Virus record (IMG/VR): IMGVR_UViG_3300045747_000191
Span: 1-29,583 of that record
DNA length: 29,583 nucleotides
Source: a virus
Direction: 5' to 3' (one strand)
The notes below the pieces were generated by a model that searched no databases, had not been told where the DNA came from, and saw only the letters and a program-made list of their open reading frames with translations. Below, piece by piece: positions 1-28,738 of this stretch (position 1 is the stretch's first letter; each line of letters starts with the position of its first letter). The position numbers and the translations under genes were made by a program.

Positions 1-90
1 ATCATTAAAATAACCGCAGTAAATCGTGCGTCCGGCCAAGCGGTACGAGGCTTGATATTTCCCAGTGCGTTTGTTGTGCGATACTGACAT
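1..90 (-). CDS. AP2-type DNA-binding domain protein, N-terminal part (cut by left edge)
   Basis: Thirty codons of a leftward gene are visible, beginning at the ATG complementary to 88-90 and running off the window. The Shine-Dalgarno-like AAAAGGTG lies about 6 nt before the ATG. The peptide starts MSVSHNKRTGKYQASYRL and continues with GRTIYCGYFND. The pattern N-K-x-T-G-K-[YW]-x-A, a short strand, then hydrophobic-x-x-G-Y-F is typical of phage AP2 domains, a three-stranded sheet that binds DNA and is often found alone or next to HNH homing-endonuclease domains. A C-terminal HNH nuclease is therefore possible but cannot be seen. It is the first gene downstream (leftwards) of the AT-rich repeat region and may be controlled from it. 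The reading is direct; the family call rests on motif resemblance over 30 residues. Confidence 0.55.
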   Translation of the reverse strand, partial: MSVSHNKRTGKYQASYRLAGRTIYCGYFND

Positions 91-290
91 AATAAACACC
101 TTTTAAGTTACAGACGAGATTGTCGTAACGAAAGAGTACCGCAAGCAAACGCAAAAAACAAGAGATTTGTTGGATATTAATAGTTACACAACAGCAACTA
201 AATATTACATTTAACATCCTAATAGTATTCAACAAATCACTTGAAAATCGTGTAAAGGGGGCGTAAAACACCCAAAAACAGGGTAAAATG

Positions 291-390
291 GGGTAATTAT
301 CCAAGATTGCGGGGGTAATTATCCAGAGGCTTGGATAATTTCAAGCCCTTGATTGCAAAGGGAAATAATACATTTTGGGGGTAATTATCC
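291..390. repeat. GGGTAATTATCC near-palindromic repeats (three full copies plus a half)
   Basis: GGGTAATTATCC occurs exactly at 291-302, 313-324 and 379-390, all in the same orientation. A partial inverted copy (GGATAATT) lies at 333-340. The core GG-N-TAATTA-N-CC is palindromic, so each copy could bind a dimeric regulator or act as an iteron. Copy starts are 22 and 66 nt apart, close to two and six helical turns, which places the sites on the same face of the DNA. They sit between the leftward terminator-like hairpin and the AP2-type gene, so a repressor or initiator binding array is the natural reading. Function is inferred. Confidence 0.6.
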
Positions 391-454
391 GGGTTCAGAA
401 AAATGTATCCTTTATATAAATTAAATATTGTCGCGTTGACGCGCACCAACAATT

Positions 455-483
455 AAAAAAAGTTGCTAAGAGGGGCTCTCTAG
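455..483 (-). terminator. Leftward rho-independent terminator-like hairpin
   Basis: Read on the minus strand, CTAGAGAGCCCCTCTTAG (483-466) can fold into a 7-bp stem with one bulged G and a CCC loop, followed after four bases by seven U residues (complement of 455-461). It would end the leftward transcript of the 745-1610 genes. The gap between stem and U-run and the low GC content make it weaker than the terminator at 4101-4136. Confidence 0.4.
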
Positions 484-511
484 GTGTCTGGATATGTCTA
501 TTTGTCTAATT

Positions 512-538
512 TGTATATATATATACATAATTTATGTA
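512..538. other. Two overlapping AT-rich palindromes
   Basis: Positions 512-527 are a perfect 16-bp palindrome (TGTATATATATATACA). It overlaps a second palindrome at 524-538 (TACATAA-T-TTATGTA). Both lie between the repeats at 291-390 and the inverted copy at 638-649. Such DNA melts easily and could be a duplex-unwinding element of an origin, or part of a promoter; nothing in the sequence decides between these. Confidence 0.4.
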
Positions 539-610
539 TAAAGTTTTTATTTTTATCCTTTGGTTTCAGGCACTTAACCGTGTACACACCTGAACAAGTG
601 TTTAACTTGA

Positions 611-649
611 AATTATCCAAAAATGACTCTTGGTTCTGGATAATTACCC
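611..649. repeat. Inverted copy and half copy of the GGGTAATTATCC repeat
   Basis: GGATAATTACCC at 638-649 is the exact reverse complement of the repeat at 291-302, 313-324 and 379-390. AATTATCC at 611-618 is a half copy. They lie on the far side of the AT-rich palindromes, so the array flanks that core from both sides. Confidence 0.55.
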
Positions 650-683
650 GTAGCCCCGAGAACTTCATCAAAAAAATAAAAAG

Positions 684-704
684 TTGTCTAATCGTTTGTC
701 TAAT
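684..704. repeat. TTGTCTAAT direct repeats
   Basis: TTGTCTAAT occurs at 684-692 and 696-704, spaced 12 nt start to start, and again at 502-510. Shorter TGTCT elements lie at 485-489 and 495-499. This is a second repeat family, distinct from the TAATTA-centred one. A protein-binding role is possible but unproven. Confidence 0.4.
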
Positions 705-744
705 TGTAAATGATTAAACACTCGGCGGCATGATGAGTCGTCGG

Positions 745-930
745 CTAGTACTTGTTGATGTGGCACTTCGCACCGTTAGCCATGCGCCCAGTCAACGGGT
801 AGTGGATAATGGCGCTACTCATCTTGCACTTGCCGACGGTCGTTGCGTTGTCGCGCAGGCACATCCTGTCAGCGTACAACAAGGAAGTGGCGATGGGCTT
901 TCCGGTTCGGACTATCTTACGCTTACGCAT
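745..930 (-). CDS. Small Cys-containing phage protein (61 aa)
   Basis: The leftward frame starts at the ATG complementary to 928-930, chosen because AGGAG lies 5 nt upstream. Upstream extension of the frame to 978 would cross the hairpin at 969-988 and has no ribosome-binding site. The product is basic (starts MRKRKIVRTGKP) and has three cysteines, at about residues 24, 35 and 56, the last followed by His57; this could be a metal site or may mean nothing. I do not recognise the family. It lies 74 nt downstream of the 201-aa gene on the same strand and is probably co-transcribed with it, subject to the intervening hairpin. Confidence 0.65.
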   Translation of the reverse strand: MRKRKIVRTGKPIATSLLYADRMCLRDNATTVGKCKMSSAIIHYPLTGRMANGAKCHINKY

Positions 931-968
931 ACATTCTCCTATCTTGGCTGCGGGTTGAAAACCTCTGA

Positions 969-988
969 GATAGGGCAACCGCCCTATC
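969..988 (-). terminator. Intercistronic hairpin between the two leftward genes
   Basis: GATAGGGC (969-976) and GCCCTATC (981-988) form a perfect 8-bp stem with a 4-nt loop. On the leftward transcript it is followed by UCAGAGGUUUUC, which has only a short U-run. It begins 17 nt after the stop codon of the 201-aa gene and ends 38 nt before the next start. It is more likely a partial terminator or an RNA-stability/processing hairpin than a full stop. Confidence 0.5.
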
Positions 989-1004
989 CCCCAGACTTTC
1001 GGGT

Positions 1005-1610
1005 TTAGATCACCGACAACACCTTGCGGATGTTGGCTTGGTCTTGCGCTTCCTTGGTAGCGGCTTGCTCGGCGCGTTCCTTGGCAACCAAGGCGAGCTC
1101 GGCTTTCTCGGCGGACTTTTGCTCCTCGGTCATGTAGGCAAGCGTGAGTTTTCCGGACAGTGCGCTCAATTCCTTGAGTGCCTCAGCGTGTACAACGTTG
1201 CGTTGTCCGAGTGTGACTTCCTTCGACATGCGAGTAATGAAAGCCTGAAACGCTTCCATAACATCCAGCTCCTGCAGCACTTTAGCGGCTGGTGCAGTGC
1301 GACGGTTCCACGGATTGGCGTTGAGATATTCCGCGTTAAATTCGCCGTCGAAAGATTTGTTGAAAGTGAGAGCGTTGTTAACAACTTGCACTGGAGCGTG
1401 CGTGCACAGATATTTGACAATCGCTTTCAACTCCGCGCCAGACCCGTCGAGCGTAGCAACAAGGCGAATGCACGGATCGATATTCGAGTCGCATTCAATC
1501 GCGATGCGGATACACTCCACAAGCACTGCTTGCACTTCAGCCGACCACTTGGCAGTTTTGATGCCCAGTGATTTGATCATAGCGTAGACTTTCAGTTTTG
1601 GGGTAGACAT
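1005..1610 (-). CDS. Phage protein of unknown function (201 aa)
   Basis: The start ATG (complement of 1608-1610) has a strong AGGAG 6 nt upstream. The first two thirds look globular: a hydrophobic and charged N-terminus (MSTPKLKVYAMIKSLGI) and a central region containing NPWNRRTAP. Residues ~150-195 are rich in Ala, Glu, Lys and Gln, predicting a long helix or coiled coil. I recognise no family. Its leader region (1615-1740) has unusual folding potential and a possible short upstream ORF, suggesting control of translation. It is the first gene of the leftward transcript and diverges from the late genes, so an early or regulatory role is possible, but this is context only. Confidence 0.75.
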   Translation of the reverse strand: MSTPKLKVYAMIKSLGIKTAKWSAEVQAVLVECIRIAIECDSNIDPCIRLVATLDGSGAELKAIVKYLCTHAPVQVVNNALTFNKSFDGEFNAEYLNANPWNRRTAPAAKVLQELDVMEAFQAFITRMSKEVTLGQRNVVHAEALKELSALSGKLTLAYMTEEQKSAEKAELALVAKERAEQAATKEAQDQANIRKVLSVI

Positions 1611-1624
1611 GATGTTCTCCTAGA

Positions 1625-1736
1625 ATCAACGTCCTACCGCGCAGCTCGAATGAACCGTGACCAGCGGGGCGTTGATAGTAGGACGGTGCATAGCCAGTGC
1701 ACCGTAGGAAACCTAGGGGCTTTCGCCTTTTTACGG
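1625..1736 (-). promoter_or_regulatory. Structured leader of the 201-aa gene (alternative stems and pseudoknot topology)
   Basis: On the leftward RNA, in order: CCGTA (1736-1732, overlapping the stop codon of the short upstream ORF) can pair with TACGG (1706-1702). That TACGG overlaps the 5' arm of a perfect 8-bp hairpin, ACGGTGCA (1705-1698) with TGCACCGT (1690-1683), 7-nt loop, so the two are mutually exclusive. Next, GTCCTAC (1684-1678) pairs with GTAGGAC (1637-1631), and ATCAAC (1676-1671) pairs with GTTGAT (1630-1625). The order 5'-5'-3'-3' is that of an H-type pseudoknot. The Shine-Dalgarno sequence begins within a few bases of the last arm. The pairings are exact; regulation is inferred. 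Confidence 0.4.
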
Positions 1737-4204: not shown

Positions 4205-6307
4205 GTGGCTCTTGGTCTTTTAATACCTGCGGCCTCAGCCGCATCGCTAGAAGCCGACGACGCGGCTCGGAGAGCATCCGAAGCCAATCAGAACACACCT
4301 CTGGTGCAATCGCTCGCCGCCCACGTAAAAAAACGTTGGGCTCTCGTCCGCGACACCCGCACCGTCGTCGAAGACCGCTTGTCGAAATGCTTGCGGCAGC
4401 GCGCGGGGAAATACGATCCCGAGACGCTCGCCGAGATACAGAAGCAGGGCGGCTCCGAAATTTACATGAACCTCACCAGCGTCAAAGTGCGCGGCGCGTC
4501 AAGCTGGCTGCGCGATACGCTGACCGGCACTGGTTCCGAAAAGCCTTGGTCCCTCGACGCCACGCCAATTCCAGAGCTCCCTCCGGAAGTGCAGAAAGGT
4601 CTTTTTGACGACTTGCACGCCGAAGTACTAAACCACATGCAGACCACCGGCGAGATACCGCAGGAAGCCGAAGTTCGCCAGTACGCGTTGCAGATGCGGG
4701 ATACCCAGCTACAAAAAGTACAGGATGCTGCGAAGCTGCGAGTGTCCCGTATGGAATTGAAGATGGAAGACCAGCTGACGGAAGGCGGGTTTGCCAACGC
4801 ATTCAGCGAATTCATCGACGACATTGTTACGTTCCCGACGGCCATACTGAAAGGGCCGGTTCCGCGCAAGCGTACACTTCTGAAGTGGGATGGAACGATG
4901 CTTGTCCCAACGGAAAGCATACGTCTGGAGTGGGAACGCGTCGATCCGTTTAAAGCATACCCTGCTCCGTGGGCGTCATCTGTACAAGATGGATTCTTTA
5001 TCGAACGCCACAAACTCACCCGTTCCGATCTTGAGTCCCTTATCGGCGTAGATGGGTACGATTCAGCGGCGATTAAGGCAGTTTTAGCCGATTTTGATGG
5101 CGGGATGCTGCGAAATTGGCTCTCTGTGGACTCGTTACAGGCTCAGGCCGAGAACAAAAACGCTGCAACAGCGGATACCGAAGAGATTGTTGAAGCAATT
5201 CAACTGTGGGATGAGGTTACCGGCGACAAATTGCTTGAATGGGGTATGCCGAAGACAGATATTAAGGACAAAACCAAGACTTACCCAGCCGAAGTGTGGC
5301 TTATCGGCTCGCGCGTGGTGCGCGCGGTGCTGAATTACGACCCGTTGGGCAGAAAACCATACTACGCATCGAGCTATGAGGTCCTCCCGGGTAGTTTTTG
5401 GGGCAACAGCGTGCCTGACTTGATTCGTGACTGCCAGAGTATGTGTAATGCGTCCGCAAGGGCACTCTCGAACAACATGGGGATCGCTTCCGGGCCGCAA
5501 GTGGGGGTAAACATCAGCAGATTGCCTGCTGGCGAGCAAATTACCAACATGTACCCGTGGAAAACGTGGCAATTTCAGAATTCTGACTACCAAGACAACT
5601 CGAAACCACTGGAATTCTTCCAACCAACGAGCAACGCACCCGAATTGATGGCTGTTTTCGAGAAATTCTCGACAATGGCTGACGAATACAGCGGAATCCC
5701 GCGATATATGACGGGCGAATCCACATCCGGGGCTGGCAGAACGGCTTCTGGCCTCTCCATGATGATGAGCAACGCCTCAAAAGGTCTGAAACAGGTAGTC
5801 CACAACATCGACTCTCGGTGTTTGACCCCCATGCTTGAGCGCTTGTACCAGCACAATCTGCGGTACAGCAAGGACCCAGAACTGGTCGGCGACGTCACTA
5901 TTGTGGCAAAAGGCGCTGTTTCTCTGGTCCTGAGAGAGACCACGGCGGTACGCAGAAACGAATTCTTGCAGTTGGTGCTGAATAGCCCTATAGCCCAACA
6001 GGTTGTTGGCTTACCGGGTGCTGCTGCGCTGCTGCGCGACGCGGCTAAACAGCTTGATATGCCAGCAGATAAAGTGGTGCCAAGCGAGCAGTCGATTGCG
6101 CAGATGATTGCGGACCAACGGGCACAGCAACAGGCCGCATTGCAGCAGTCCATGCAGCCCGAGTACGAAAAAATTGATTTCCAGAAGGATGCGTCGGGTG
6201 CTGTGACCGGGGCGACGAAGATGAAGCCAAAGGGTATGCTGCCCGACGGATCACCAGCGGGTGGTCGCGACGCTAATATTGTGCGCAACCGAGTTCAAGG
6301 CGGATAA
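4205..6307 (+). CDS. Portal (head-tail connector) protein
   Basis: A 700-aa protein forming the dodecameric ring at the capsid vertex through which DNA is packaged and ejected. Its size matches large P22-type portals (P22 gp1 is 725 aa), not the ~500-aa siphovirus portals. Portal-like stretches include ERVDPFKAYPAP (residues ~240-251), YDPLGRKPYY (~378-387) and GSFWGNSVPDLIRDCQ (~396-411). A long helical section follows, and the C-terminus (~630-665) is Gln/Ala-rich, as in the barrel of P22 portal. The start is a GTG; only a poor CAGGG-like ribosome-binding site precedes it and no in-frame ATG is available upstream. It is the first gene after the terL terminator. Confidence 0.9.
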   Translation: MALGLLIPAASAASLEADDAARRASEANQNTPLVQSLAAHVKKRWALVRDTRTVVEDRLSKCLRQRAGKYDPETLAEIQKQGGSEIYMNLTSVKVRGASSWLRDTLTGTGSEKPWSLDATPIPELPPEVQKGLFDDLHAEVLNHMQTTGEIPQEAEVRQYALQMRDTQLQKVQDAAKLRVSRMELKMEDQLTEGGFANAFSEFIDDIVTFPTAILKGPVPRKRTLLKWDGTMLVPTESIRLEWERVDPFKAYPAPWASSVQDGFFIERHKLTRSDLESLIGVDGYDSAAIKAVLADFDGGMLRNWLSVDSLQAQAENKNAATADTEEIVEAIQLWDEVTGDKLLEWGMPKTDIKDKTKTYPAEVWLIGSRVVRAVLNYDPLGRKPYYASSYEVLPGSFWGNSVPDLIRDCQSMCNASARALSNNMGIASGPQVGVNISRLPAGEQITNMYPWKTWQFQNSDYQDNSKPLEFFQPTSNAPELMAVFEKFSTMADEYSGIPRYMTGESTSGAGRTASGLSMMMSNASKGLKQVVHNIDSRCLTPMLERLYQHNLRYSKDPELVGDVTIVAKGAVSLVLRETTAVRRNEFLQLVLNSPIAQQVVGLPGAAALLRDAAKQLDMPADKVVPSEQSIAQMIADQRAQQQAALQQSMQPEYEKIDFQKDASGAVTGATKMKPKGMLPDGSPAGGRDANIVRNRVQGG

Positions 6308-19186: not shown

Positions 19187-19740
19187 TGAACAAGGCTCAG
19201 CTAAACGCGGAGCCGTTCGGTGCGGCAGCGGCCAGCGGCTTTGTAACCACTTCAATGGCGGTATCTGGGTACGCCACTAGCACAACCTGCAATGCGTATT
19301 TGATTTACCACCTAGCCGAAAGCGTAACTTGCTCGGCTACGACCAGTCCGGGTTTCAAATACATAACCCAGTGCGCGTCAGAAATTACGGCTTCGGTAAC
19401 TTCCTCGGTAGCGTATTTCACGCAGGTAGCGATATACGCGTCCTCAGCACTCACAGCCTCTGCGTCGGCGGTCCTCGAAGTTATACGCAGTACGTACGCT
19501 GAAGCTTCCCAGCAAGCAGTGGCTTCGGCAGAAGTTGCCACGTTCAAGGCCGTTGTGTGGGCTTCAAACGTAGTTTGCGGTGCCTCGTCGGATGCTGCTT
19601 TTTCTTTGTTTTACGGTGTAGCGTCTAGTACATCGTGTGTAGCCACATCGACGTTTAGCTGGGATACTACCGGGTACCACGCATCACCCGACAGAACGAT
19701 GGTCGTTTCTGCGGAAGATAGAACAATGGCGGTGACATAA
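19186..19740 (+). CDS. Ser/Ala/Val-rich structural protein (184 aa)
   Basis: ATG 19186 overlaps the previous stop. After MNKAQLNAEPFG the sequence is almost uniformly alternating small and hydrophobic residues (TSMAVSGYATSTTCNAYL, ASEITASVTSSVAYFT), predicting beta strands, with several cysteines. An M-N-K-x-x-L-N-x-x-P-F-G opening is familiar to me from small structural proteins in related phage clusters. Function unknown; probably a fibre or baseplate accessory. It overlaps the next gene (TAATG, 19738-19742). Confidence 0.65.
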   Translation: MNKAQLNAEPFGAAAASGFVTTSMAVSGYATSTTCNAYLIYHLAESVTCSATTSPGFKYITQCASEITASVTSSVAYFTQVAIYASSALTASASAVLEVIRSTYAEASQQAVASAEVATFKAVVWASNVVCGASSDAAFSLFYGVASSTSCVATSTFSWDTTGYHASPDRTMVVSAEDRTMAVT

Positions 19741-20027
19741 TGGCTATTATTGGGCGCATGACCAAGCAACCGCTAGAGGTTCTTGACTACGACGTTGATT
19801 TCTCTGAGTGGTTACCCACCACTGATTTTATTGCTACTGCCAGCGCTGTTGTTTCCCCAGCGACGAGTCTAGCCATTGGCACTGTTTCCGTGTTTGACAC
19901 CACTTGGGTAAAGGTGTGGCTTTCCAGTGGGGTCACAGGCACTAAGTACAAAATTACCGTTACCGTTGTGACGGACGACGGACGTACAAAAGAAGCTGAG
20001 TTCTATGTAAACGTGAAAGAGGTTTAA
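19740..20027 (+). CDS. Fibre-tail adaptor-like protein (95 aa)
   Basis: ATG 19740 overlaps the previous stop. The protein reads TKQPLEVLDYDVDFSEWLP (residues ~8-26), a long Ser/Thr/Val beta section, VKVWLSSGVTGTKYKITVTV (~57-76) and T-x-D-G-R-T near the end. K-Q-P-x-E-V-L-D-Y-D-V-D-[FW] with a later W-L-x-x-G-x-x-G-x-x-Y is what I recall for a small family annotated as phage fibre-tail adaptor proteins. The position directly before the large fibre gene agrees. Confidence 0.7.
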   Translation: MAIIGRMTKQPLEVLDYDVDFSEWLPTTDFIATASAVVSPATSLAIGTVSVFDTTWVKVWLSSGVTGTKYKITVTVVTDDGRTKEAEFYVNVKEV

Positions 20028-20030
20028 GCC

Positions 20031-22319
20031 ATGGCTACCACGCACCAACTATTCAAGAATAACGCCAACACCACTCTCACTGGTGCCGCTGGTAGCGCTA
20101 TAGGAATTGGCGGCACGTCGCTTGTGCTTACTGCTGGACACGGAGCCCGTTTTCCTGCTATCGCCGCCGGTGAATATTTCTACGTATCGCTGTATGAGAA
20201 GAGCGGTGCAGCCGGAACCGGCAACGAAATAACTTACGAGATCGCCAAGTGCACAGCGCGCTCCACAGATACGTTGACGCTGGTACGAGACATTGAGGGC
20301 ATCGTAGTGGCCGCTGGGGGAACTTCCGGAGGTTGGTCCTACCCATCAGTGGTTGGCACAAACCCAGACGGCATTACGTACATCCAGTTGCGGTGGACTG
20401 CTTTTGGTGCCACAAATTCTCTGGCTAAAGACGGTAACCTTGAGGGTTTGGAAAGCGCTGCGACTTCCAGAACCAATCTCGGGCTTGGGACGATAGCGAC
20501 ACAAGCCGCAAACTCCGTGGCGATCACCGGCGGTTCTATCACTGGCGTTACTTTGGCTGGGAACACAGGGCTTCCTGTCGCTACTGGCATTTCTGGACTG
20601 GGAACAGGCATTGCTGCATTTTTAGCGACCCCATCCAGTGCTAACCTCGCGACCGCGTTGACTGACGAAACAGGTACCGGCGCTAACGTCTTCGCTACAT
20701 CGCCAACACTGGTCACCCCAGTTCTCGGTACGCCAACATCTGGCACGTTGACGAACTGCACACTCCCCGTCGGCGGTGTTACTGGCCTCGGCACAAGCGT
20801 TGCTGCGTTCCTAGCGACACCATCTAGCGCGAACTTGGCCGCTGCGTTGACTGACGAAACAGGTACCGGCGCTAACGTCTTCGCTACATCGCCAACACTG
20901 GTCACCCCAGTTCTCGGTGCAGCAACTGCCACGTCACTTGCACTAACTACGGACCTCGATGTTGTCGACGGCGGCACTGGGCGTTCCACTAGCACGACGG
21001 CGTACGCCTTGATTGCAGCTGGCACAACGGCAACCGGTCCACACCAAACTCTAGCCGTTGGGGGCACCACAGATATTCTGGTTGGCGGCGGCGCTGCTGC
21101 ACTCCCGGTATGGACTGCTGCCACTGGAACTGGTTCTCCTGTTCGCAATACATCTCCAACATTTGTCACACCCGTTCTCGGCACCCCGACTTCTGGCACG
21201 TTGACGAGTTGCACCGGACTTCCGGTTACCACTGGAGTTACGGGGCTAGGCACCGGTGTTGCTGCGTTCTTGGCAACTCCATCGAGCGCGAACCTGATTG
21301 CAGCGATTACCGATGAGACTGGTTCCGGCAATTTAGTGTTCAGCACCAGCCCAGCGTTTACCACCCCAGTTCTTGGCACGCCAACATCTGGCACGTTGAC
21401 GAACTGCACACTGCCAGTTGGTGGAGTTACGGGGCTAGGCACCGGTGTTGCTGCGTTCTTGGCAACTCCATCGAGCGCGAACCTGATTGCGGCGGTTACC
21501 GATGAAACTGGCACAGGGTCGCTAGTGTTCGCCACATCACCAACATTTGTCACCCCTGTTCTCGGCACGCCAACATCTGGCACGTTGACGAACTGCACAC
21601 TCCCCGTCGGCGGTGTTACTGGCCTCGGCACCAGCGTTGCTGCGTTCTTGGCCACCCCATCGAGCGCCAACCTGATCGCGGCGGTTACCGATGAAACCGG
21701 TACTGGAGCGCTTGTTTTTGCAACGTCTCCAACGCTCACCACCCCAGTGATCGGTGCTGCAACAGGTACAAGCCTTTCAGTGTCAGGACAGCTTACCTCA
21801 ACGGTGGCCACTGGCACTGCACCTCTAGCCGTCACGTCCACTACGCTCGTCGCTAATTTGTACACCGCGCGGTCGGCGCTAACAGATGCTCTGAAATCAG
21901 CCACAACGTCTGTAGACGTATCGGCGGGTGCGGCACCGGCAGTTGGGCAAGTCCTTACGGCTACATCAAGCACCACGGCGACGTGGCAAGCACCCAGCGT
22001 TCCACAAAACTCACCCTCGGTAGCATACCCAATAGTGCTTAGTGATGCTGGCAAGCATCTTTTGCATCCTTCAGCGGATACAACGGCGCGGACTTTTACT
22101 ATTCCAGCGAATGCGTCTGTTGCGTTCCAAGTCGGAACTGCGCTTTCGTTTGTCAATCAAAGTGGTGCCGGGGTTCTTACCATAGCGATCACTACTGATA
22201 CAATGCGGCTTGCTGGTGCTGGCACGACAGGGTCTAGAACACTTGCTGCAAACGGGGTTGCAACTGCATTGAAAATCACTACTACAGAGTGGATCATTAG
22301 CGGAACAGGACTAACCTGA
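20031..22319 (+). CDS. Repeat-built tail fibre protein (762 aa)
   Basis: GAGGT precedes ATG 20031. Residues ~1-150 are an N-terminal attachment domain. Residues ~180-590 are built from tandem 63-residue modules with the core VTGLGTGVAAFLATPSS, then an A-x-T-D-E-T-G-x-G segment, then FATSP-x-x-x-TPVLGTPTSG. Residues ~660-762 form a C-terminal beta domain (LSDAGKHLLHPSADTTARTF). Such modules are common in side-tail fibres and form a trimeric stalk. Several module segments are identical at DNA level (see repeats), so recombination is active here. There is no visible autoprotease or chaperone domain. Confidence 0.85.
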   Translation: MATTHQLFKNNANTTLTGAAGSAIGIGGTSLVLTAGHGARFPAIAAGEYFYVSLYEKSGAAGTGNEITYEIAKCTARSTDTLTLVRDIEGIVVAAGGTSGGWSYPSVVGTNPDGITYIQLRWTAFGATNSLAKDGNLEGLESAATSRTNLGLGTIATQAANSVAITGGSITGVTLAGNTGLPVATGISGLGTGIAAFLATPSSANLATALTDETGTGANVFATSPTLVTPVLGTPTSGTLTNCTLPVGGVTGLGTSVAAFLATPSSANLAAALTDETGTGANVFATSPTLVTPVLGAATATSLALTTDLDVVDGGTGRSTSTTAYALIAAGTTATGPHQTLAVGGTTDILVGGGAAALPVWTAATGTGSPVRNTSPTFVTPVLGTPTSGTLTSCTGLPVTTGVTGLGTGVAAFLATPSSANLIAAITDETGSGNLVFSTSPAFTTPVLGTPTSGTLTNCTLPVGGVTGLGTGVAAFLATPSSANLIAAVTDETGTGSLVFATSPTFVTPVLGTPTSGTLTNCTLPVGGVTGLGTSVAAFLATPSSANLIAAVTDETGTGALVFATSPTLTTPVIGAATGTSLSVSGQLTSTVATGTAPLAVTSTTLVANLYTARSALTDALKSATTSVDVSAGAAPAVGQVLTATSSTTATWQAPSVPQNSPSVAYPIVLSDAGKHLLHPSADTTARTFTIPANASVAFQVGTALSFVNQSGAGVLTIAITTDTMRLAGAGTTGSRTLAANGVATALKITTTEWIISGTGLT
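20655..21631 (+). repeat. Tandem 189-bp fibre modules with exact DNA matches
   Basis: Exact repeats, compared by eye: 20655-20729 = 20844-20918 (75 bp, offset 189); 21233-21301 = 21422-21490 (69 bp, offset 189); 20730-20794 = 21567-21631 (65 bp, offset 837). All offsets are multiples of 3, so crossovers preserve the frame and would change the number of 63-residue modules. Confidence 0.85.
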
Positions 22320-28294: not shown

Positions 28295-28738
28295 ATGGAA
28301 TACGCACTAGAGTCAATTGCTACCGACCCCAAGGCCACCACCGAATTGTGGCTTGCCCACTGGGAAGAAACTGAAACACAGTACCGCATCGCCCCGCTAA
28401 ACCCGGATATTGATCTGATGAAGAGAATGGACGAAAACGGAAAACTTCGGTACTTCACTGCTCGCGATAATGGAGCATTGGTGGGGCACTTACTTTTTGC
28501 TGTCGGCAACGACCGGTTGACCATGACTCCATCAGCTGGCGAAGAATTTTTTTACCTTACCCCAGAGCACCGCAAAGGCCGGAACGCTCTACGTTTGATT
28601 AATTTCGCGATAGCGTATTTGAAAGCCGAAGGTATGCGTAGCATAACCATGACCTCTAAGCTGACCACCAATCGCGGGATTGATTCTCTCCTCAAACATG
28701 TTGGGTTCCGACATGTTTCAAATCTTTATGTCTTATAG
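28295..28738 (+). CDS. GNAT-family N-acetyltransferase (147 aa)
   Basis: Shows the GNAT order: an N-terminal helix (ATTELWLAHWEETE), strands with RYFTARDNGALVGHLLF (residues ~48-64), strand beta4 EEFFYLTPEHRKGRNALRLI with the acetyl-CoA pyrophosphate-binding R/Q-x-x-G-x-[GA] loop as RKGRNA (~87-92), then helix alpha3 and a closing strand GFRHVSNLYV. Members move an acetyl group from acetyl-CoA to an amine. Phage copies beside internal virion proteins are common and their substrate is generally unknown. It has its own promoter-like element and lacks a ribosome-binding site. Confidence 0.8.
   Translation: MEYALESIATDPKATTELWLAHWEETETQYRIAPLNPDIDLMKRMDENGKLRYFTARDNGALVGHLLFAVGNDRLTMTPSAGEEFFYLTPEHRKGRNALRLINFAIAYLKAEGMRSITMTSKLTTNRGIDSLLKHVGFRHVSNLYVL

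Follow-up and report, generated by a model that had tools for sequence, protein, structure and literature searches.

The window analysed here, that is, the whole stretch of DNA under study, is a virus record of 29,583 bases that encodes a terminase, a portal, a capsid and an internal virion protein. Close to its left end, at positions 291-649, an array of short repeats occupies an intergenic gap amid leftward open reading frames (one running off the left window end and reaching in to about 90, the others at 745-930 and 1005-1610). The array lies upstream of the rightward late genes (terminase at 2599, portal at 4205), at the place where the leftward early block ends, near the boundary with the late genes. 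The portal protein is matched by 36 cultured records, all at less than 60 % identity, the best being RHph_TM3_14A (35 %), with HMO-2011 at 26 %; a related portal protein thus places the window in the HMO-2011-like group. Elsewhere, a GNAT acetyltransferase gene lies among the structural genes at 28295-28735 (Pfam 2.1e-08; also PHROG), and a 605-residue frame at 20339-22156, antisense to a 762-residue tail-fibre-like frame at 20031-22319, is probably a by-product of codon use. The window gave no Rfam match to an RNA element at gathering thresholds. Directly left of the array there is a 25-nt inverted repeat (159-183 / 219-243), its arms 84 % complementary and 35 nt apart.

Repeats and AT-rich core of the window

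The 12-bp repeat GGGTAATTATCC is a near-palindrome composed of AATTATCC (written '<') and its complement GGATAATT ('>'). Exact copies are found at 291-302, 313-324 and 379-390 on the + strand and at 638-649 on the - strand, with half copies at 333-340 (GGATAATT) and 611-618 (AATTATCC), just as the initial annotation had described them, and the search outside the array that it had called for returned no further exact copy in the 29,583 bases. With up to two mismatches allowed, GGGTAATTATCC has 10 matches in the window (eight of them the four exact sites, each read on both strands), whereas 100 dinucleotide shuffles average 1.27 and never reach 10. Additionally, TTGGATAATTTCAAG at 331-345 and CTTGAAATTATCCAA at 606-620 form a perfect 15-bp inverted pair with one half copy inside each arm. 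The copy spacings of 22 and 66 bp had been taken as close to whole helical turns; this holds for the first pair only (22 bp, 2.1 turns), since 66 bp corresponds to 6.29 turns at 10.5 bp. Two features had escaped the initial annotation. One is a degenerate tandem triplet, GGATAT-GTCTATTT-GTCTAATT, at 490-511, of which 496-511 is one mismatch away from the doublet GKMTAATTGKMTAATT, a match seen in 0 of 100 shuffles. The other is an integration host factor (IHF) consensus at 342-354, which alone is not significant, as the window holds three such matches and 8 of 100 shuffles reach three. Taking the strand of the late genes as +, the site order is < 291, < 313, > 333, < 379, >>> 490-511 (degenerate), < 611, > 638. 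The features are listed below with the slots (S1 to S7) that they occupy and the filling of those slots among 48 distinct arrays.

291-302, + strand: slot S1 ('<', AATTATCC on the + strand), full near-palindromic iteron GGGTAATTATCC, exact; S1 filled in 35 of 48
313-324, + strand: slot S1, second full iteron, exact; two S1 copies about 20-24 bp apart also occur in some relatives
333-340, - strand: slot S2 ('>'), inverted half-iteron GGATAATT, within the inverted partner of 606-620; S2 filled in 31 of 48
342-354, + strand: IHF consensus YAANNNNTTGATW (CAAGCCCTTGATT), left-hand slot; a consensus match, alone not significant in the window
379-390, + strand: slot S3 ('<'), full iteron, exact; S3 filled in 44 of 48
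490-511, - strand: slot S4 ('>>>'), degenerate triplet of 8-bp iterons, GGATAT-GTCTATTT-GTCTAATT on the + strand; exact triplets were the search key in relatives
507-556, no strand: AT-rich core (92 % AT) with palindromes at 512-527 and 524-538; candidate melting site, by composition
611-618, + strand: slot S5 ('<'), half-iteron AATTATCC, here about 64 bp (about 6 turns) past the usual +58; S5 filled in 36 of 48
638-649, - strand: slot S7 ('>'), full inverted iteron, exact; S7 filled in 38 of 48
686-705, - strand: two more GTC-class half-sites, GTCTAATC (686-693) and GTCTAATT (698-705) on the + strand, a possible right-hand extension seen in the window sequence only

The AT palindromes placed by the initial annotation within 512-538 are present, as TGTATATATATATACA at 512-527, which is perfect, and TACATAATTTATGTA at 524-538, which pairs seven bases with seven around a single base. 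The stretch 507-556, at 92 % AT, is the highest 50-bp value of the window (the next peak reaches 70 %), and, whether taken over 50, 100 or 200 bp, the AT maximum of the window falls inside the array. In a 100-bp scan, nothing was more AT-rich than the array in the window or in the relatives' records G003, G004, G005, G007 and G009, and the array was near the top in G001, G002 and the RHph_TM3_14A piece; in GC-rich relatives, a separate AT core was not evident. Two traits of iteron origins are present: a short repeat recurs in a cluster at a single place, and beside it, by composition only, lies an AT-rich stretch. Of six records tested for GC skew, only G002 and G004 have a minimum 2.4 kb away from the array, and the signal is confounded by gene strand.

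Arrays in related phages

A portal scan yielded 561 relatives, of which 80 loci were kept. The exact 12-mer is present in four of these (L030, L043, L064 and L081), 4.4-5 kb upstream of portals that are 54-56 % identical; many of the other 76 loci end before reaching that far upstream. The intergenic gaps of the four hold sites of this kind together with an 8-mer repeated three times in tandem. The initial annotation had regarded absence of the motif from relatives as a finding that would speak against its proposal; the exact motif is instead shared, at the homologous position, by independent relatives. Of 15 long records, seven contain GGRTAATTATCC, confined in each to one short region. A scan for the triplet gave 55 viral stretches, 48 of which match at least one protein of the phage group, with four more lying in group records by other evidence. 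Among the seven triplet loci without a group protein, L126, L163 and L166 are in records with a DUF927 relative and L131 is in the contig of portal locus L014, while L142 and L168 have no DUF927 match, and L151 is the seventh. A genome scan for the triplet returned 118 stretches, and several among the 80 listed carry many tandem copies; none was counted as a relative. Searches at the DNA level were negative: two GGGGTAATTATCC copies 5-30 bp apart had no match in viral contigs (a search from which the window's own record may be excluded), window positions 1-1650 showed no DNA similarity to cultured phages, and the array of one relative showed none to phages and plasmids.

The order of slots is kept across the arrays: <, >, <, >>> (8-bp tandem), [IHF consensus], <, >. 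Besides the slot counts given above, the triplet is present in 45 of the 48 distinct arrays, a figure that is partly so by construction, because the triplet was the search key for 40 of them, and S6 ('<') is filled in 18. The counts were anchored on the triplet, with slot limits set after the arrays had been inspected; in G030, G038 and G039 the wrong run served as the anchor, so that they register as misses in most slots, and G055 has two tandem copies rather than three. Left out of these counts, and of the IHF-block and IHF-slot counts below, were L140, L142, L151, L168, duplicate arrays and the triplet-less loci L083 and L088. In the window, S5 and S7 are about 64 bp further out than is usual in relatives, and the order < < > < >>> < > is kept.

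Of 40 distinct GGA/GTC arrays, 34 carry a full IHF consensus in a slot (the right-hand slot in 32, the left-hand slot in 3), where a background of 0.040 per kb predicts 0.0012 for a 31-bp slot or 0.0020 for a 51-bp slot; the 40 arrays form 12 clusters at 80 % identity and are therefore not 40 independent events. The consensus was in neither slot in six of the 40 (L082, L085, L129, L144, L145 and L146). Aligned, 26 distinct blocks between the triplet and S5 (six loci being without such a block) read YAA (1.6-2.0 bits), NNNN (0.4-1.0), TTGATT, T, with the strong YAA and weak NNNN that are characteristic of IHF; as TTGATT and two near variants were used for picking the blocks, the independent parts are only YAA, the weak spacer and T. 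The consensus WATCAANNNNTTR appears together with IHF in published literature. Since lambda attP likewise combines tandem arm sites with IHF sites, the array could be read as the recombination site of a temperate phage, and a tyrosine integrase does occur in G016 and G017, two of 11 records, so some members of the group may be temperate. In the other nine, all array carriers (the window, G001-G005, G007, G009 and G018), no tyrosine integrase (PF00589) was found, though the records may be fragments; with the cognate gene not found in the window and eight other array records, the attP reading was rejected as highly improbable.

While the geometry is kept, the repeat word changes. A scan for 8-mer clusters with no word preset turned up AT-rich clusters in 22 of 34 records, some of them made of other words, namely GGATAATA (G037), AATATTCC (G036, G056 and G057), AATATTCT (G039), ACTAGACA (G055), AATTAGACA (G016, G031 and G034) and TAATCCAA (G030), and sites of GGATAATA, GGAATATT and TGTCTAGT lie within the slot ranges of the GGATAATT arrays. 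Locus L068, whose portal is 63 % identical to that of the window, carries tandem GTGATAAA, inverted TTTATCAC and an IHF consensus. The scan did not list an array in 11 of the 34 records (G008, G010, G012, G014, G041, G045, G051-G054 and RHph_TM3_14A); G010, G012 and G014 carry a distant DUF927, and the eroded array of G008 and the weak one of RHph_TM3_14A were seen by eye only. In G005, whose array is known from another search, the list was filled by a different repeat. G045 has another cluster, GCCGTAGC in 16 copies, and a cluster of five GGGTAAAA in G054 is without an IHF consensus. In Pseudomonas phage Rollin (L290:1-500), which has a distant DUF927 protein, several AAAAGGTAG...CTACCTTTT palindromes accompany an IHF consensus and are possibly a further iteron array with another word. 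L006, with a portal 60 % identical to the window's and 10 kb of upstream sequence present, has weak, spread GTGTCAA words near an IHF consensus in a region that is not AT-rich. There, at L006:5155-5690, an IHF consensus at 5485 is surrounded by four GTGTCAAC words, or five if a 7-mer is included, in both orientations; this cluster, which precedes the portal by about 4.5 kb, is weak and possibly represents another word.

The changing word also bears on whether the array mimics a host oriC that depends on DnaA. The E. coli R3 DnaA box is TTATCCAAA, and the half-sites AATTATCCAA contain TTATCCAA, which resembles it; IHF and an AT-rich stretch are also parts of oriC (PMC5043065). Against this, the strict box TTWTNCACA is missing from 291-649 and occurs once in the whole window, against 2.19 expected; the GTC-only arrays L129, L145, L146 and L162 have AATTAGAC words and no AATTATCC, which breaks the pattern; and other relatives use AATATTCC or ACTAGACA. 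A DnaA-box array is therefore very unlikely and was rejected.

Other conserved sequences lie within or beside the arrays of relatives. Between S2 and S3 in L030, L064, L087 and others (e.g. L030:703-781), alignment of the relatives' sequences reveals conserved non-iteron sequence, with the block AACCCGCATGGATACTGG and a 12-bp palindrome, AGGGTWWACCCT, whose centre varies and in whose place L145 has a different palindrome, CTGCCTAAATTTTAGGCAG; this is perhaps a second dimer site, and it was not seen in the window. Another palindrome, GTGTATACAC, occurs 6, 6 and 4 times in G003, G005 and G009, respectively, and not at all in several relatives; beside the arrays of L030 and L064 it lies, by eye, near gene starts, and it may be a promoter or an operator of the phage.

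The cultured Rhizobium phage RHph_TM3_14A has an array-like intergenic gap at 19356-20124. It shares with L030 a run of 21 letters of the IHF block, CTAACCCATTGATTTTAAAGG, and has a second, inverted IHF consensus, AT-richness and a distant DUF927 gene. It differs in that its repeats (approximately CATAATT) are weaker, going unlisted in the 8-mer scan, and in that the IHF block is oppositely oriented relative to the early genes. Judged by these comparisons of sequence, the repeats of the window are one instance of a conserved, precisely ordered control site in related bacterial viruses, and the conserved element belongs to the phage group related to HMO-2011 and RHph_TM3_14A.

Candidate initiator and promoter-like sites

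Among the early gene products of relative G001 are a DUF927 protein (1014 residues), an SNF2-type helicase, a DNA polymerase of family A, a PD-(D/E)XK nuclease and a further protein, SSB-like by inspection, whose tail is acidic. The DUF927 primase-helicase is present in 21 of 26 records. In its structural model (mean pLDDT 82, pTM 0.47), residues 1-222 form a primase-polymerase fold (S-2L PrimPol 6zp9, Z 16.1, 175 aligned, 2.8 A), and the region from about 391 to 997 resembles SCCmec Cch (5dgk, Z 31.1, 488 aligned, 6.3 A) and SaPIBov1 Rep (8tch, Z 25.9, 463 aligned, 8.1 A); a sequence profile built from 31 relatives retrieved the same two helicases from the PDB (1.2e-17 and 5.4e-6). Folded alone (mean pLDDT 78), the C-terminal 153 residues best match residues 452-561 of SaPIBov1 Rep (Z 9.2, 101 aligned, 2.9 A), followed by a relaxosome accessory protein solved with oriT DNA (Z 7.6) and, among lower matches, winged-helix DNA-binding proteins; in a Foldseek search by itself, this domain had nothing under E 0.001, the best match being 8tch (E 0.025). 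SaPI Rep recognizes iterons through its C-terminal domain (PMC7581432). The relatives thus have a helicase of the SaPI Rep/Cch type with a C-terminal DNA-binding domain, by predicted fold. With its N-terminal primase of archaeo-eukaryotic type, SaPI Rep/Cch-type helicase and C-terminal winged helix, all as modelled, the DUF927 protein is the likeliest candidate initiator. The window, a fragment without early genes, gave no match to a relative's DUF927 protein, and its phage would be expected to have the same protein. In RHph_TM3_14A, the product of EVB41_076 (L292:30240-33323) is labelled 'putative integrase' and matches the DUF927 primase-helicase (21 % identity, E 1e-20), so that, going by this match, the label is probably wrong.

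Several observations count against an origin served by this protein. In G001, the DUF927 gene lies 20,081 bp from the array, at the far end of the leftward block, and no second 8-mer cluster was listed. G008 has a DUF927 that is 82 % identical, yet its array is eroded (by eye), and the array of G030, with a DUF927 80 % identical, is weak; of 29 records picked by DUF927 likeness, only three have the GGA/GTC doublet within one mismatch. When iteron and protein changes were compared, no protein stood out; the C-terminal window of DUF927 ranked first of 98, with P 0.0015 taken alone and 0.33 after correction. Operators and their regulators co-diverge too.

That last point belongs to a different account, in which the array is only an operator or enhancer of a leftward early promoter, where a phage regulator binds, IHF loops the DNA and early transcription is switched. 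The element lies upstream of leftward genes, the GATAAT within GGATAATT resembles a -10 box, so that the sites overlap promoter-like sequence, and a single 20-bp bin on the minus strand collects 20 promoter-like hits from 41 arrays, with the -10 over S3. However, sigma70-like promoters are barely above shuffles (1.83 versus 1.40 per array); about 10 sites over 350 bp, a contiguous 8-bp triplet, AT-richness and the lack of any other copy in the tested records go beyond an ordinary operator; and no repressor-like protein is named among the early proteins scanned, a scan that many small early frames fell outside. Control of transcription and nothing else is accordingly an unlikely role. Rather better placed, if still on the doubtful side, is a dual role that overlaps with the origin reading, in which the array serves both as the origin and, as iteron plasmids do, as an early promoter under autoregulation, the initiator repressing it when the sites are full. 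This would combine the data that favour an origin with the recurrent promoter-like hit over S3; the 20 kb between the array and the DUF927 gene of G001, at the far end of the leftward block, argues against it. Because promoter-like sites recur over S3, a part for transcription control, alone or with replication, is to be kept in mind.

The array as a putative replication origin

Taken together, the layout and the matching viral protein suggest a site where copying of the virus DNA starts, and the element from about 290 to 650, perhaps to 705, is probably a phage replication origin of the iteron type with IHF. The initial annotation had offered an origin or a master switch; conservation of the motif, slot order, IHF consensus and AT-richness, along with the initiator-type helicase of relatives, favours the origin half of that proposal. 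As a mechanism, the phage initiator, most plausibly the conserved DUF927 protein of relatives, would bind the ordered 8-bp iterons; host IHF would bend the DNA between the groups of sites and bring these together; the AT-rich core next to them would open; the initiator's own helicase and primase domains would load there; and forks would leave both ways, leftward along the early genes and rightward along the late genes. Each of these steps, from binding and IHF use to melting, initiation and fork direction, is deduced from the layout and from the predicted protein.

Several known systems share parts of this plan. The iterons of the lambda origin lie inside the O gene. Lambda ori, served by the O protein, is like the array in being a phage origin with iterons beside an AT-rich stretch (PMC5043065), and differs in that its iterons are 19 bp long (same paper), as opposed to 8-12 bp, intergenic and with an IHF consensus here. 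R6K gamma and pSC101 also unite iterons and IHF with an AT-rich region (same paper), whereas here both site orientations occur in fixed slots, the candidate initiator is a primase-helicase and there is no strict DnaA box. The origins of E. coli phage-inducible chromosomal islands (PICIs) have two iteron sets flanking an AT-rich region (PMC6092414), and in the window, too, an AT-rich stretch has short iterons to its left and right. The likeness to SaPI/PICI replicons and SCCmec Cch extends to the relatives' initiator-type helicase with DUF927 and a predicted C-terminal winged helix. In contrast to SaPIs and PICIs, the array has a contiguous 8-bp triplet and an IHF consensus in a fixed slot, and it belongs to a phage with its own terminase, portal, capsid and internal virion protein, i.e. 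not to a satellite. Whereas the SaPI origin is directly 3' of rep, the array of G001 is 20,081 bp from the helicase gene. Since the origin is not beside the helicase gene and the phage has its own structural genes, the element is not a SaPI/PICI replicon; most likely, the array functions as iteron origins do, with a SaPI-like initiator. A literature search, subscription papers aside, found no reported origin for this phage group, and the string GGATAATTATCC turned up only in work on mammalian and fungal subjects (by title). The best reading is a previously undescribed form within the iteron/IHF kind of origin.

A broader proposal, with chances slightly short of even, is that a widespread family of phages replicates from origins of fixed geometry, in which the seven slots and the IHF bend are conserved and the 8-bp word is rewritten between phages, to be read by a primase-helicase of the SaPI Rep/Cch fold. 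If the origin reading is right, both an origin and an initiator would be at hand at once for a phage group whose portal has hundreds of relatives among viral contigs, and the origin would be testable in the cultured Rhizobium relative. There would also be natural variants in which the site geometry is constant and the recognition word changes, which could be used to learn how a winged-helix initiator changes specificity while keeping origin function. If the broader proposal is true, the family would amount to a natural series of switches in initiator-iteron specificity and of replication compatibility groups.
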